Origin: Flavobacteriales bacterium
GTDB lineage: Bacteria > Bacteroidota > Bacteroidia > Flavobacteriales > Schleiferiaceae
Direction: 5' to 3'
DNA: 64,000 nt
Assembly: GCA_017795025.1 (NCBI GenBank)
Contig: CP051243.1
Coordinates: forward strand, 3,124,897-3,188,896
The notes under the pieces are model-generated. The model did not search any database and was not told the DNA's origin. It saw only the letters and a program-made list of their open reading frames with translations. Below, piece after piece: positions 10,002-15,626 of the stretch. The stretch's first letter is position 1; each line of letters opens with the position of its first letter. A program made the position numbers and the translations under genes.

Positions 10002-10584
10002 TATCATTAAATACCTTTTGCAAGGCCTCCTTATTGTGGCGCCCATAGCGATTACGGTTTATTTACTTTATGAGGTCTTTATTGTATTAGATGGGCTGAT
10101 TCCTTTCGATGTACCAGGTTTGGGCATTGTGGTAATCTTAGCTGGAATTACCCTAATTGGATTCATCGCCAGTCACTTAATTTCGGAACGATTGCGCAGC
10201 TGGTTTGATCGCATTATTCGTAAGGCGCCGGTGATTAGTTTGGTTTATACTGCCGTTACCGATGTGCTTAATGCCTTAGTAGGAGAGAAGCGAAGTTTTA
10301 AATATCCCGTTTTAGTTCAAACAGAAGCGGATTCGTCGGTAAAGCGAATTGGCTTTGTAACCCACCGCGGTTTTGGGAAACAAGCTAAACTGAAGGAGGA
10401 GTATTTAACGGTTTACTGTCCGCATAGCTATGCCATTTCTGGGATTGTATTCCTGGTGGAAAAGAGTCGGGTAGAACCTTTAGATTTGCCCGCAGCAGAT
10501 GTTATGAAATACGTTATTTCCGGCGGAGTAACCCGCATGGAGGACCCCATATTTTTAGAGAATGAAGAAAAGTCTACTCCTTAG
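9994..10584 (+). CDS. DUF502 family membrane protein
   Basis: A 196-residue protein with two N-terminal membrane segments (about 5-30 and 40-65) followed by a soluble domain. The opening I-x-Q-G-L-L-I-V-x-P-I-x-I-T segment, the R-K-A-P-V-I-S-L-V-Y-T-A-V segment just after TM2 and the later GFVTHRGFG match DUF502 (COG2928), a family of unknown function related in plants to the COV membrane proteins. It overlaps the MmcQ gene by 8 bases and the PNGase-like gene by 23 bases, so the three are likely read from one transcript. Confidence 0.9.
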   Translation: MNSIIKYLLQGLLIVAPIAITVYLLYEVFIVLDGLIPFDVPGLGIVVILAGITLIGFIASHLISERLRSWFDRIIRKAPVISLVYTAVTDVLNALVGEKRSFKYPVLVQTEADSSVKRIGFVTHRGFGKQAKLKEEYLTVYCPHSYAISGIVFLVEKSRVEPLDLPAADVMKYVISGGVTRMEDPIFLENEEKSTP

Positions 10585-12553
10585 TCTTAGCCTATTAATA
10601 AGCTTTCCATCCTTGGCAGCCGAGGGCGATACCACCATTGTTTCAGCTCATCAACAAAGGGATTTAACCTGGTATGGTTCCTATAAGGATTGGGCGGTAT
10701 TCCCGGATGCGAATCATTCCTACCATCAAATCCTTTTGGAATATACTATGGGATGTGCAAGCGGGGGCTGTTCGGATTGGGATTACACCACTATTGTTGA
10801 TTTGCTTATCCCCACCGGACAAAATGATAGTACCATCAGCCGTATTGATACTATTAGCACCAACCCCTTACAAATAGATACCATTTGGAACGTGTTTCCC
10901 ATAAAAGAACGAATCGAACTCTGTAAGGTGATTACTCCCTATGGTGGGGCTCTAAGTTCTGATTGGACTCGCGATTTTTATTTCGACGTAAGTGATTATT
11001 ATCCTCTACTTCAAGATTCGGTGGAGATTGATGTGCGCTACCAAGGTTGGAGCAGTGGCTTTAGCGCCAGCCTAAATTTTATCATGATTGAAGGAAAGCC
11101 GGTTCGCGATGTTTATCAAGTCGAGAACTTATATCGCGGAGGTTTTACCTATATCGACTCTGCGCAATTCGAGACTAACCATATGCCCGCAAGGGCCCTT
11201 AATCCGCATCCTCAGGCAACTCAATTTTACTTGCGGGCTGCCCCCTCCGGACATGGTTTCGTAAATGATGCGAATTGCGCTGAGTTTTGCGAAAAAGACT
11301 ACTATGTATATATCGATGGTCAACAGGTAGCCAGTCAGGCGATGTGGCGCGATGACTGTGGTTTAAATGACCTTTGGCCACAAGCAGGCACTTGGCTTTA
11401 CGACCGGGCTAATTGGTGTCCCGGTGATCGGGTAAATCAGCATTTGCATGATCTCAGTGCCTACGTCCCCAATGCCGATAGCATTGATGTGGATATTGAA
11501 GCATACACCTATACCCGTCCGGCTGGCGAAAGTCCGGCAAGCTATAATATGTCGGTTCAGCTTTTTCACCTCGGTGATTTTAACAACAAACTCGATGTGG
11601 CTATTAGCGATATTATAAAGCCCAGTGCTGAGGATGAACACGCTCGTTTTAACCCGATTTGTGATGAAGCTTTAATAGAAGTTGAAAATCGAGGAGCAGA
11701 CCCCATACAGTCGCTGAGAATTAGCTACGGCTTAAAAGGAAATACCCAATGGCGTACCTTCAATTGGACGGGAAATATAAGTTCCTTGCAAAAGGAATTT
11801 ATCGCCTTGCCGATGGATTCACTGAAGGATTGGACCAGCCTTAAATCTGATTTAGAGTTTATGGTTCAAATTGAGCGGGTTAATGGTGGATTGAGCGATT
11901 CCGTAGATTTTAATAATCGACGTTCTACCCCTATTGCCTTGCCAGAGCAGTATCCAAATAAACTGCGCTTTGAGCTTCGAACTAATGGCCGAGGTTCGGA
12001 AAGCTGGTGGAAATTGGAAGATGCCTGGGGTCAAGTGCTGTACTCAGGTGATAATCTCGCTAGTAATACAACCTATCGCGATACTTTTGATTTAGATCCG
12101 GGTTGCTACCATTTACTGATTGGGGACCGCGATAAGGATGGCCTAAGTTTTTTTGGTAACAACGATGGTTCGGGTCGGATATTAATGCGCAATGTTGGCG
12201 GTAACTTTTTCTATAAAAATTACAATCCAAACTTTGGGACTGAGCTCAGTGATTACTTTACCGTGGGTTACAGTATCGGCCTTCAAGAAGAGGCTGCGCT
12301 TAGCTCGCCTCTATCAGTATATCCAAATCCCAGTAATGGATTAGTGTATTTAAGTTGGGAAAGCGCCACACCTGAAACTCTTCAGCTGCATTTACGGGAT
12401 GCGCAATCGCGATTGGTTTGGTCCTATCAAGATCAAATTCAGGCCGGAGGAGAACTGGAACTCCATCTGCCGAAAGGCTTAAGCGGGCTCTACTTTTTAG
12501 AGGTAGAATCGCCTAGTCACGGCAAAGTGGTGGAGCAAATAATCCTAAAATAA
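10562..12553 (+). CDS. PNGase F-like peptide:N-glycosidase exported by T9SS
   Basis: PNGase F cleaves the amide bond between asparagine and the first GlcNAc of N-glycans. This 663-residue protein has a signal peptide (1-20), a two-part PNGase F domain (about 25-320), a middle beta-rich region (about 330-570) and a T9SS type A sorting domain (about 583-663, starting LSVYPNPSNG and ending KVVEQIILK). Key matches to Elizabethkingia PNGase F: the GGCSDWDY segment gives the catalytic Asp74 (Asp60 there), CAEFC gives the catalytic Glu241 (Glu206 there), and WLYDRANWCPG matches WAPDRAGWCPG. The position of PNGase F Glu118 appears to be Gln161, while the following Trp is kept. The exporter is consistent with sprA in this window. 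Likely secreted or surface-bound. Confidence 0.88.
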   Translation: MKKSLLLSLSLLISFPSLAAEGDTTIVSAHQQRDLTWYGSYKDWAVFPDANHSYHQILLEYTMGCASGGCSDWDYTTIVDLLIPTGQNDSTISRIDTISTNPLQIDTIWNVFPIKERIELCKVITPYGGALSSDWTRDFYFDVSDYYPLLQDSVEIDVRYQGWSSGFSASLNFIMIEGKPVRDVYQVENLYRGGFTYIDSAQFETNHMPARALNPHPQATQFYLRAAPSGHGFVNDANCAEFCEKDYYVYIDGQQVASQAMWRDDCGLNDLWPQAGTWLYDRANWCPGDRVNQHLHDLSAYVPNADSIDVDIEAYTYTRPAGESPASYNMSVQLFHLGDFNNKLDVAISDIIKPSAEDEHARFNPICDEALIEVENRGADPIQSLRISYGLKGNTQWRTFNWTGNISSLQKEFIALPMDSLKDWTSLKSDLEFMVQIERVNGGLSDSVDFNNRRSTPIALPEQYPNKLRFELRTNGRGSESWWKLEDAWGQVLYSGDNLASNTTYRDTFDLDPGCYHLLIGDRDKDGLSFFGNNDGSGRILMRNVGGNFFYKNYNPNFGTELSDYFTVGYSIGLQEEAALSSPLSVYPNPSNGLVYLSWESATPETLQLHLRDAQSRLVWSYQDQIQAGGELELHLPKGLSGLYFLEVESPSHGKVVEQIILK

Positions 12554-12554
12554 G

Positions 12555-14096
12555 CTAGGACGAGGGGCGAGTTCGCACGCTATTACTCGGTAAGGGAACT
12601 TGAGGAGGGCTTTTCTTAGGAGACTTATTGCCCGTAATCTTCTTGCCTCGGTCGGAGGGTCTCGAGAAACCTACGCGCTTCATTGATCCCCAAGCTTTCT
12701 TGCCTTCGAAGAAATAGTCCCAGTTTCCGGTAACCGCACAATACACCACAAAGGGGTGGAAAATTAGCGGTTCAATAAGACCAGCAATTACAAGCCGTAG
12801 GAGCTGCCGTCTCTTTTTATACTGGAAAAAGGTAATTTCCTCAATGTACAGGGTTGCAATGGTAAAGGCTACGGTATAGCCGTAAATCAAAGCGATGAAT
12901 AGGTATAGGAAGCTAATATTAATCACACCTAGCAGACTGAAGAGGATTAAAAGGATAATACCAAAAGCTTCAATTAAAGGGGCTAGCCATTCAAATAACA
13001 ACCAATAGGGATAAGAGATCATCCCGATTTTACCATAAAAAGGATTCAGGAATAAACGCTTATGCGATAATAAGGTTTCCACCGCACCACGGGTCCAACG
13101 GTTCCTTTGCTTGCGCAGAACTGACCACGACTCGGGTACTTCGGTCCAACATAAGGGGTCAGGTACAAAGCCTACCACATAGTCGATATCTTTTTCGCGG
13201 GCATAGCGACGCATACGCACCGTTAGCTCCATATCCTCACCGATGGTTTCATTATCGTAACCACCACACTGAATCACCAATTGTTTTTGAAAAACCCCTA
13301 AGGCTCCTGAAATTAGCAGTAGTCCATCGAGGGATCCCCAGGCCACCCGTCCCAATAGGAAGGATCTTAGGTACTCTAGTGTTTGGAACTGCGCGAGGAG
13401 TTTATTAGGAACGTTTACTTCAACAATGCGTCCTTTCTCGATCCGACAATTGTTAGCAATACGTACCACCCCTCCGGTAGCAATCATGTTTTTATCGGTT
13501 TCTTCCAAGAAGGGCTTCATTAGCTTTAACAAGCAGTCCTCCTCCAAGATACAGTCTACATCAATGTTTAGGGTATAGTCGCCGGTAGAGACATTTAAGG
13601 CCGCATTTAAGGCATCGGACTTACCGCCATTCTCCTTATCAACCACCACTAAATTATTGTAGGCGGGGTCTTTAGATTTATAGACGTTTTTAACCTTTTT
13701 GGTTTCAATTTTATAGTTCACTGCAAAGTTCACCGGCTCCAATTGGTATTCCTCGATGAGTTTGGTTAGTGAGCGGTCGCGGCTTCCGTCATTAACTACG
13801 ATTACCTCATAATTGGGGTATCGCACAGATAGTAGGGAGCGAATATTTTCGATGATGGTGGCTTCCTCGTTGTAGGCAGGAGCGAGAATGGAAACACTGG
13901 GTGCCTCCGGACTTTGAAGGATATTGAGGTAATCGGTGTAAGTGTTTCTGCGCAGATATTTCCGTGCTTGGATTACCGATATAACTCCTAGGATAAGGTA
14001 GGACACCATTACAAATACGGTGTAGCCGTAAGTAATGAAGTAGAAAATATAGATGAGAATATCTACGAGTGAGTTCTGCGTGTCATATTCTATCAT
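12555..14096 (-). CDS. Processive family 2 glycosyltransferase (polysaccharide synthase type)
   Basis: A 513-residue inner-membrane enzyme of the PgaC/BcsA type, which polymerises a sugar from a nucleotide-sugar and may thread the chain across the membrane. Visible parts: TM1 at about 15-40; GT-A domain with VNDGSRD (101-107), the acceptor-side DVD (179-181), the TIGED motif (284-288) and Q-R-N-R-W (330-334, the QxxRW motif that marks processive synthases); then several membrane segments (about 355-450) and a basic, proline-rich tail. The sugar cannot be told. It overlaps the HEAT-repeat gene by 14 bases and is last in the operon. Its stop lies 1 base from the stop of the convergent PNGase-like gene. 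Confidence 0.9.
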   Translation of the reverse strand: MIEYDTQNSLVDILIYIFYFITYGYTVFVMVSYLILGVISVIQARKYLRRNTYTDYLNILQSPEAPSVSILAPAYNEEATIIENIRSLLSVRYPNYEVIVVNDGSRDRSLTKLIEEYQLEPVNFAVNYKIETKKVKNVYKSKDPAYNNLVVVDKENGGKSDALNAALNVSTGDYTLNIDVDCILEEDCLLKLMKPFLEETDKNMIATGGVVRIANNCRIEKGRIVEVNVPNKLLAQFQTLEYLRSFLLGRVAWGSLDGLLLISGALGVFQKQLVIQCGGYDNETIGEDMELTVRMRRYAREKDIDYVVGFVPDPLCWTEVPESWSVLRKQRNRWTRGAVETLLSHKRLFLNPFYGKIGMISYPYWLLFEWLAPLIEAFGIILLILFSLLGVINISFLYLFIALIYGYTVAFTIATLYIEEITFFQYKKRRQLLRLVIAGLIEPLIFHPFVVYCAVTGNWDYFFEGKKAWGSMKRVGFSRPSDRGKKITGNKSPKKSPPQVPLPSNSVRTRPSS

Positions 14097-15204
14097 CGAG
14101 TACGTGTTTTACGATATTTTCGCCGTTTTCGGAGAGTTCATTTTCACGATAGGAAGTAAGCACATCGTGGCGCCCCATGCGTTTAAGCGCTTTGGCTGAA
14201 GCCATGGCGAGCTCGTACTCTTTGGTGGAAGTAAGCACCTCACGCAAGTGACCGGCTTCTTTTGCACCACCAAGTTCCCCCATCGCTTTCAAAACTATGG
14301 CTTTCACGCGAATATTCTTGGTAAGCTCGTAAACTTCGTAGAGATTTTCAATGCATTCTGAATAGGCGAGCTCGATGGCCGTCTCAATTGCTTTTTCTTG
14401 CACCTTTTCGTTGCGATGGTAAAGCAACTTTTGCAATTGTCCGCGCTCGTGGTACTGATTTAAGTGTCGCATTAAGATAAGTGCGAATATCACTACACTG
14501 TCGTTTTTGGATTGCAGCCAGGGACCAATATTGTCAATTAATTCATATTCGAATTTTCTCGATTGATCTAATAGTCGAATCTGCTGCCATTCGCTCATAG
14601 GAGATTCCAAATCGTTAAGGAAACTCATGGCCTTTTTACCACCGAGTTTTACGGCAGCATACTGGGCTTCGTTTCGCACGTGCACATTATCGGCATCGGT
14701 GTATTGCAGCACTTCAAACAAGGTTTCCCCCATTCGCATGGTGCTAAGATCGTTTATGGCTTTCGCACGAACATGCCATTCCCCATTGCGAAGGTTCTCT
14801 AAAGTCATTTGCTTGAGGCCAATCTCGCGGTACAAGTTTTCGAGACGAGCGAAGGCCTCACCACCAAGGTTTCGATGGTAATAAAGAATAAGCTCGTTAA
14901 GGATATTCATGTTTGATCTACGGTAGAGCGTAGAGTCTACAATGCGATTAATTTTTTTGGTCGCATCCTTAAATTCACTGGCGTCTTGCTCGGTAAAAAC
15001 AACTTCTTGGATGATAGGCTCTACCTGTCGCTTGATTCGACGTTCCCGATTTTCAATACTATTTTTTCTGGAACGCTCACGCAATACAATCGAAACCATC
15101 ACCGCTGCCGAAATCAGCAACACGATAACTAAGATGATTACAATCTTATAGCGTGGCTCAAGAGCCAGAAGGAAGTAGTATATGTCAATTAGGAACTGGC
15201 GCAT
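14083..15204 (-). CDS. Membrane-anchored HEAT-repeat protein
   Basis: A 373-residue protein with one N-terminal membrane helix (about 19-41), a basic segment, a helical region at 60-120, then a run of HEAT-like helical pairs (about 125-365): examples are WHVRAKAINDLSTM, NVHVRNEAQYAAVKLGGKKA, VQEKAIETAIELA and IRVKAIVLKAMGELGGAKE. HEAT arrays are protein-binding scaffolds. It sits between a single-domain response regulator (2 bases upstream) and a processive glycosyltransferase (14-base overlap), so it may pass the regulator's signal to the synthase. That link is inference; there is no catalytic motif. Confidence 0.85.
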   Translation of the reverse strand: MRQFLIDIYYFLLALEPRYKIVIILVIVLLISAAVMVSIVLRERSRKNSIENRERRIKRQVEPIIQEVVFTEQDASEFKDATKKINRIVDSTLYRRSNMNILNELILYYHRNLGGEAFARLENLYREIGLKQMTLENLRNGEWHVRAKAINDLSTMRMGETLFEVLQYTDADNVHVRNEAQYAAVKLGGKKAMSFLNDLESPMSEWQQIRLLDQSRKFEYELIDNIGPWLQSKNDSVVIFALILMRHLNQYHERGQLQKLLYHRNEKVQEKAIETAIELAYSECIENLYEVYELTKNIRVKAIVLKAMGELGGAKEAGHLREVLTSTKEYELAMASAKALKRMGRHDVLTSYRENELSENGENIVKHVLDDRI

Positions 15205-15206
15205 CT

Positions 15207-15584
15207 TTATTTTTTGCTGTTTTTAAGCAGCTTTTTAATTCTTACCGAAAGTTCATTAGGACTAAAAGGCTTGGTCATAAAGTCATCTGCACCTAAATCA
15301 AAGGCCTTTAATACCGCAGTTTCCGAATTTAAGGAGGTGAGCATTAGCACCGGAGCATCGGTTCCACGTTCCTTTAGGATTTTCACCAATTCGAAGCCAG
15401 AGATAAAAGGCATCATGATATCACTAATGATAATATGGTATTCTTCACTTTCAATTTTTTGGATGGCTTTTTCACCATCTTCCGCCGTGTCCACATCATA
15501 TCCGTCTTTAGTCAATTTAAAGGCTAAAGCATCTCGGATTAGAGGCTCATCGTCTACAATTAGAATTTTCGCTTTATCACTCAT
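15207..15584 (-). CDS. Single-domain (CheY-like) response regulator
   Basis: A 125-residue receiver domain with no output domain. It has the acidic pair Asp11-Asp12 (VDDEP), phospho-acceptor Asp55 (ISDIMMP), the conserved Thr/Ser (MLTS, Thr83) and Lys105 (MTKPFSP), so it should be phosphorylatable. With no DNA-binding domain it probably acts by protein contact. It is the first gene of the operon with the HEAT-repeat protein and the glycosyltransferase. There is no histidine kinase beside it; the only kinase gene in the window is at 60628. A promoter -7 match lies 35 bases upstream. Confidence 0.95.
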   Translation of the reverse strand: MSDKAKILIVDDEPLIRDALAFKLTKDGYDVDTAEDGEKAIQKIESEEYHIIISDIMMPFISGFELVKILKERGTDAPVLMLTSLNSETAVLKAFDLGADDFMTKPFSPNELSVRIKKLLKNSKK

Positions 15585-15618: not shown

Positions 15619-15626
15619 CAAATGTA
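15619..15626 (-). promoter_or_regulatory. Putative -7 promoter element of the response regulator-HEAT-glycosyltransferase operon
   Basis: TACATTTG on the minus strand (15626-15619) matches TAnnTTTG exactly and lies 35 bases before the ATG at 15584. No TTG is found at the expected 19-20 base distance, so the -33 box is missing or degenerate. Confidence 0.4.

Follow-up and report, generated by a model that had tools for sequence, protein, structure and literature searches.

A receiver, a membrane HEAT protein and a GT2 synthase encoded together in Bacteroidota: probably a kinase-controlled route to extracellular polysaccharide

The window (the whole 64,000-nucleotide stretch of Flavobacteriales DNA that was analysed) carries three closely packed genes on its minus strand. 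According to an ORF check of the window, their order in the direction of transcription (5' to 3') is receiver, HEAT-repeat protein and family 2 glycosyltransferase (GT2; the enzyme is called GT below). The locus comprises the following features, listed from upstream to downstream:

15619..15626, minus strand: TACATTTG, matching the -7 promoter element of Bacteroidota, ~35 bases before the receiver start
15207..15584, minus strand: stand-alone receiver (response regulator), 125 aa, OmpR/PhoB-like, Pfam Response_reg 108.9 bits
15420..15422, minus strand: codon of Asp55, the phospho-acceptor of the receiver
Between 15207 and 15204, minus strand: receiver-HEAT gap of 2 bases
14083..15204, minus strand: membrane-anchored HEAT-repeat protein, 373 aa, HEAT_2 50.1 bits (cut-off 27.7)
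14083..14096, minus strand: HEAT/GT reading-frame overlap of 14 bases
12555..14096, minus strand: membrane GT2 polysaccharide synthase, 513 aa, Pfam GT2 82 bits

On rechecking the ORFs, the coordinates, the gap and the overlap of the original prediction were all exact. The 14-base overlap likely leads to translational coupling of HEAT protein and GT. Tight packing and gene order recur in the relatives examined, and among 52 diverse loci the HEAT-GT spacing was at most 20 bases in 49, mostly with overlapping frames. Matches of the -7 type are not commoner in the window than expected by chance, so that TACATTTG is a weak promoter candidate, and sigma-70 and terminator scans stayed at chance level. 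On the opposite strand, a PNGase F-like protein (PF09113) with a T9SS sorting tail is encoded at 10562-12553 (plus strand). This gene converges on the GT gene with a gap of one base, and is kept beside it in most of the genus loci examined.

The receiver is a single-domain response regulator most closely related to receivers of the OmpR/PhoB type. As originally predicted, all phosphorylation residues are there (the Asp/Asp pair D11 and D12, the phospho-acceptor D55, T83 and K105), and the protein ends with its domain, so that an output domain is absent.

The HEAT protein has a single strong hydrophobic segment (residues 21-39), followed by a basic stretch. The orientation of membrane proteins generally follows the positive-inside rule, and because of the basic flank after the transmembrane (TM) segment, the HEAT solenoid is predicted to be cytoplasmic. 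The protein consists of tandem helical repeats, which the AlphaFold2 model arranges as an all-helical solenoid (mean pLDDT 76.6, pTM 0.60). The best PDB matches of this model in Foldseek were designed HEAT/armadillo proteins and alphaRep. In three relatives (loci L081, L083 and L087), the HEAT protein starts with a signal-like segment, followed by roughly 110-150 residues before the TM segment. A weak LysM match, below the cut-off, in the L081 protein hints at a periplasmic part.

The GT belongs to the processive synthase superfamily of GT2 enzymes by its motifs (D, DxD, (G/T)ED and QxxRW; here D103, DxD at 179-181, GED at 286-288 and QRNRW at 330-334) and by its C-terminal TM helices. Its profile matches are to cellulose synthases and hyaluronan synthases, and QxxRW is present in 106 of 110 relatives. 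A more specific assignment did not result. The best NCBIfam match, to the PgaC_IcaA model, scored 137.6 bits against a cut-off of 422.3, and the CelA model gave 51.7 bits against a cut-off of 699.1, which does not identify the enzyme as a cellulose synthase (BcsA). The AlphaFold2 model of the GT, built from five close sequences, had a mean pLDDT of 34.9, and its fold was not used. The GT homologues of family f31 (L136, L137, L138 and L162) are without the QxxRW motif.

In many relatives, the GT carries a C-terminally fused phosphoglycerol transferase of the LtaS/OpgB type, or has the gene of such a transferase as a neighbour; there is none beside the window operon. Where present, this partner would probably decorate the polymer with groups of the phosphoglycerol or phosphoethanolamine type.

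In order to assess conservation within Bacteroidota, we searched 59 relatives for the HEAT protein. It was matched in 19 genomes, counting the host; a GT gene was alongside in nearly all cases and a receiver gene in most. A search for the GT in 296 genomes of the phylum returned 70 positive genomes, and a class-level search gave more. We then inspected the neighbourhoods (mostly 10-20 kb) of 102 GT genes from 22 Bacteroidota families. The HEAT gene was immediately upstream of the GT gene in 102/102 loci, and a receiver gene was upstream of the HEAT gene in 84, sometimes with the YaiO gene (see below) in between; these loci were chosen by GT similarity, so that the counts describe this GT clade and not GT2 enzymes at large. 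Two of the 18 loci without an upstream receiver stop at a contig edge, and in another five the gene row ends with a receiver of the same type, whose pocket is intact in four. Fusions of receiver and HEAT protein, or of HEAT protein and GT, were not found among the loci annotated. The six loci L034, L094, L104, L145, L147 and L167 represent another type of HEAT-GT locus, in which a DUF4838 gene and a receiver gene at the 3' rather than the 5' end are frequent. L145 has the two types in tandem.

Gene order is retained despite extensive sequence divergence. The lowest identities to the window proteins were ~20% for the HEAT protein, 23% for the receiver and 36% for the GT. Receiver distances follow HEAT distances beyond GT distances (partial r 0.32, with a maximum of 0.14 in 500 permutations), which weakly suggests, at the level of sequence, that receiver and HEAT protein are coupled. 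Among the 84 operon receivers, 74 retain Asp55, and R115 in alpha5 is present in ~93%, rising to 98% of the receivers with an intact pocket and including most of the degenerate ones. The conservation of R115 would fit a conserved docking face. The part of the protein beyond the receiver domain comprises 1-20 residues in 84/84 cases, leaving 0/84 with a C-terminal output domain, in support of the earlier proposal of control without transcription. In the receivers of L147 (13689-14069) and L165 (Emticicia), Asp55 is replaced (Thr, Asn), with no linked GGDEF match; these are further pseudo-receivers kept within the system.

The gene set is also found outside the phylum, in loci that we took from plasmid records. 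The order receiver-HEAT-GT occurs in the haloarchaea Haloarcula halophila and Salinirubellus, and with a small ORF after the receiver in the haloarchaeon Halosolutus. Alphaproteobacteria have expanded versions, namely receiver-YaiO-HEAT-GT in Mesorhizobium ciceri and receiver-TPR-HEAT-GT in Erythrobacter and Devosia. The pocket is kept in the HEAT-adjacent receivers of the archaeal and most proteobacterial loci. Receiver-less HEAT-GT pairs were found in Bacteroides finegoldii, Deinococcus, Legionella, Planococcus and Paenibacillus. Because an upstream receiver is missing in some Bacteroidota loci and in several of the plasmid loci, the HEAT-GT pair can apparently function without it; we therefore regard this pair as the core, and the receiver as a very common third member.

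With this distribution, the original suggestion of a joint function of the three genes is strongly supported. Conservation beyond close relatives was the open point of the prediction, and the order is indeed kept in 22 Bacteroidota families, in other phyla and in archaea, so that a restriction to close relatives can be rejected. Chance adjacency of the three genes is ruled out by the order persisting down to the lowest HEAT identities and by its archaeal occurrence.

A fourth component, YaiO, is strictly associated with the GT. YaiO is a family of outer-membrane barrels in Pfam, with a beta-barrel that is usually preceded by tetratricopeptide repeats (TPRs). The host gene lies outside the window, unlinked to the operon and among metabolic genes:

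L113:8487-9779: host YaiO, 430-aa ORF; model match at 304694-305212 of the chromosome (G000:C1), 180.1 bits (cut-off 23.9)

In many relatives, YaiO adjoins the HEAT-GT genes. Across the 296 genomes of the phylum, YaiO was found in 69 of the 70 genomes with the GT (G194 being the single exception) and in none of the 226 genomes without it (Fisher p 2e-67, for genomes that are related and thus not independent). Within one genus (g21), nine genomes have both YaiO and GT, and at least eight have neither, indicating that the two genes were gained or lost jointly. The haloarchaeal and Gram-positive plasmid loci that have HEAT-GT gave no YaiO match, as expected for organisms in which no outer-membrane exporter is needed. 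Together with the synthase motifs of the GT, the near-perfect co-occurrence with YaiO supports the earlier assignment to polysaccharide synthesis. The three-gene account as such stands as a module, and was incomplete in that it lacked YaiO and the LtaS-like partner, as well as the kinases linked in relatives and the variants without a receiver.

Histidine kinases are candidates for the input into the receiver. In about ten families, a histidine kinase gene, mostly of the hybrid type, lies upstream of the receiver gene, and the one kinase examined in full has the architecture HisKA-HATPase-REC-REC-Hpt. A linked kinase is absent in the host genus, and the host genome has 36 HisKA matches.

GGDEF proteins are the exception rather than the rule in genomes with the system. 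Neither GGDEF nor PilZ was detected in the whole host genome, GGDEF is absent from 41 of the 52 genomes carrying the system, and PilZ was above the cut-off in none of the 52. The earlier proposal of control without c-di-GMP thus holds for the host and for these 41 genomes, and is not universal, as some lineages have a GGDEF or GGDEF-EAL gene in the gene row. In 6 of the 8 loci of families f49 and f57, the gene directly upstream encodes a GGDEF-EAL protein whose motifs are intact, and the receiver has lost pocket residues in all 8, Asp55 itself in seven. In f27, a REC-GGDEF-REC protein has a dead GGDEF motif, and its C-terminal REC is the receiver, which is intact. The f31 loci are without a receiver, and in 3 of the 4 an intact GGDEF gene lies downstream of the GT gene. 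In each of the 12 gene rows that include a GGDEF domain, exactly one input is intact, either a live GGDEF without an intact receiver (9 loci) or a dead GGDEF with an intact receiver (3 loci). In the GT tree, f27, f49 and f57 group together, and live GGDEF needs only three changes, so that this exclusion amounts to two or three events, too few for statistics.

Post-translational switching of exopolysaccharide synthesis is well known for c-di-GMP, which controls the cellulose, alginate, Pel and PNAG systems in this manner. The BcsA and Alg8-Alg44 systems both rely on PilZ and c-di-GMP, and PgaA is the TPR-barrel outer-membrane exporter of the PNAG system. In PgaCD and Alg44-Alg8, c-di-GMP acts post-translationally through a small membrane partner; it stabilises PgaD, and Alg44, a regulator with one TM segment, contacts the synthase Alg8 through its cytoplasmic domain (PMC8461298).

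The gene set resembles these systems in part. As in PgaABCD of E. coli, which makes PNAG, a GT2 enzyme related to PgaC goes with a membrane partner on which it depends, through which post-translational control would be exerted, and with a putative exporter of the TPR-barrel type. However, the window GT stays far below the PgaC cut-off, the partner is a HEAT protein and not PgaD, the proposed exporter is YaiO, a phospho-receiver would take the place of c-di-GMP, and no deacetylase was seen among the neighbours identified. As in BcsA and Alg8-Alg44, the GT2 enzyme is membrane-bound, and the HEAT protein has, like Alg44, one TM segment and a cytoplasmic domain, but the host genome is without PilZ. 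The E. coli cluster yaiS-yaiP-(yaiX)-yaiO also pairs YaiO with a GT2 enzyme, YaiP, whose GT domain is matched by hhalign with a probability of 99.1%. This cluster has neither HEAT gene nor receiver, and includes a deacetylase and a broken acyltransferase. A functional study of this cluster was not found in the open-licence PMC literature. Searches of the same literature gave no description of the gene set itself, which may be described elsewhere. The component families are known, and their assembly and mode of control appear to be undescribed in the open literature.

The above observations are best accommodated, in our judgement with better than even confidence, by a synthase-dependent exopolysaccharide system that is switched post-translationally by docking of the phospho-receiver on the HEAT protein. 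The gene set would then probably be an undescribed kinase-controlled route to extracellular polysaccharide. The three genes would encode the inner-membrane and cytoplasmic core, in which the GT2 enzyme would polymerise sugar from UDP-sugars and thread the chain through its own membrane domain, with the HEAT protein as its obligate one-TM partner in the manner of PgaD or Alg44. Export through the outer membrane would fall to YaiO with its TPRs and beta-barrel. The receiver would be phosphorylated by a histidine kinase, whose gene is adjacent in many relatives and unlinked in the host, and would then dock on the cytoplasmic HEAT solenoid, probably via its alpha4-beta5-alpha5 face, and alter activity or assembly of the synthase. 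Control by protein contact, as proposed earlier, is plausible; the receiver-HEAT contact itself, the polymer product and the direction of control are points that we infer.

Several observations could also be read differently. HEAT-GT loci without a receiver exist in several lineages, REC-REC-Hpt hybrid kinases adjoin the receiver in some relatives, and the Mesorhizobium and Devosia loci are flanked by Hpt genes, all of which would suit a constitutive HEAT-GT-YaiO machinery, with the receiver as a co-transcribed phosphorelay intermediate (in the style of Spo0F or Hpt) that acts on another regulator and not on the HEAT protein. We consider this unlikely, because a stand-alone receiver is tied to HEAT-GT in many families and in archaea, and because the f49 and f57 receivers stay beside the HEAT protein despite the loss of Asp55 or other residues of the pocket, a loss incompatible with a role in a relay. 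It is very improbable, in our view, that the GT glycosylates lipids or proteins with the help of an auxiliary scaffold instead of being a polymerising synthase. A Pfam GT2 match alone is admittedly no proof of processivity, and nearby substrate genes differ (GlmS in Halosolutus, a nucleotide-sugar dehydrogenase in Legionella), but the D, DxD and QxxRW motifs with C-terminal TM helices, the near-universal QxxRW among relatives, the matches to cellulose and hyaluronan synthase profiles and the strict co-occurrence with an outer-membrane barrel all speak for polymerisation.

A further variant is compatible with receiver docking as the switch. HEAT solenoids are protein-binding scaffolds, and the PgaCD precedent includes control via complex stability (PMC8461298), so that the HEAT protein may be a true synthase partner through which the receiver sets the location or the assembly and stability of the synthase rather than its catalysis. 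This is a possibility to be taken seriously, if not the one we would bet on; it differs from the main reading in the last step alone, and that step we infer in both.

We tentatively entertain the idea that the control slot is exchangeable. The receiver would act on the HEAT protein in most lineages, and in a few a c-di-GMP enzyme would replace this input, the receiver then being a dead adaptor or lost. If so, phospho-relay and c-di-GMP would be interchangeable inputs to one synthase, which would explain exopolysaccharide control in lineages without c-di-GMP. Most of the Bacteroidota genomes examined that have the system are without a GGDEF protein. For these, receiver-HEAT-GT2-YaiO would be the counterpart of c-di-GMP switching, with a polysaccharide synthase under the direct control of two-component phosphorylation. 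The module also suggests a role for YaiO and for the family of membrane HEAT proteins.

As a minor observation on the host contig (G000:C1), three HisKA matches recur in it with identical scores, each time 3,383,583 bases further on. This repetition suggests that the 3.44-Mb contig is a circular chromosome in which ~55 kb are terminally redundant, and the window lies outside the redundant part.
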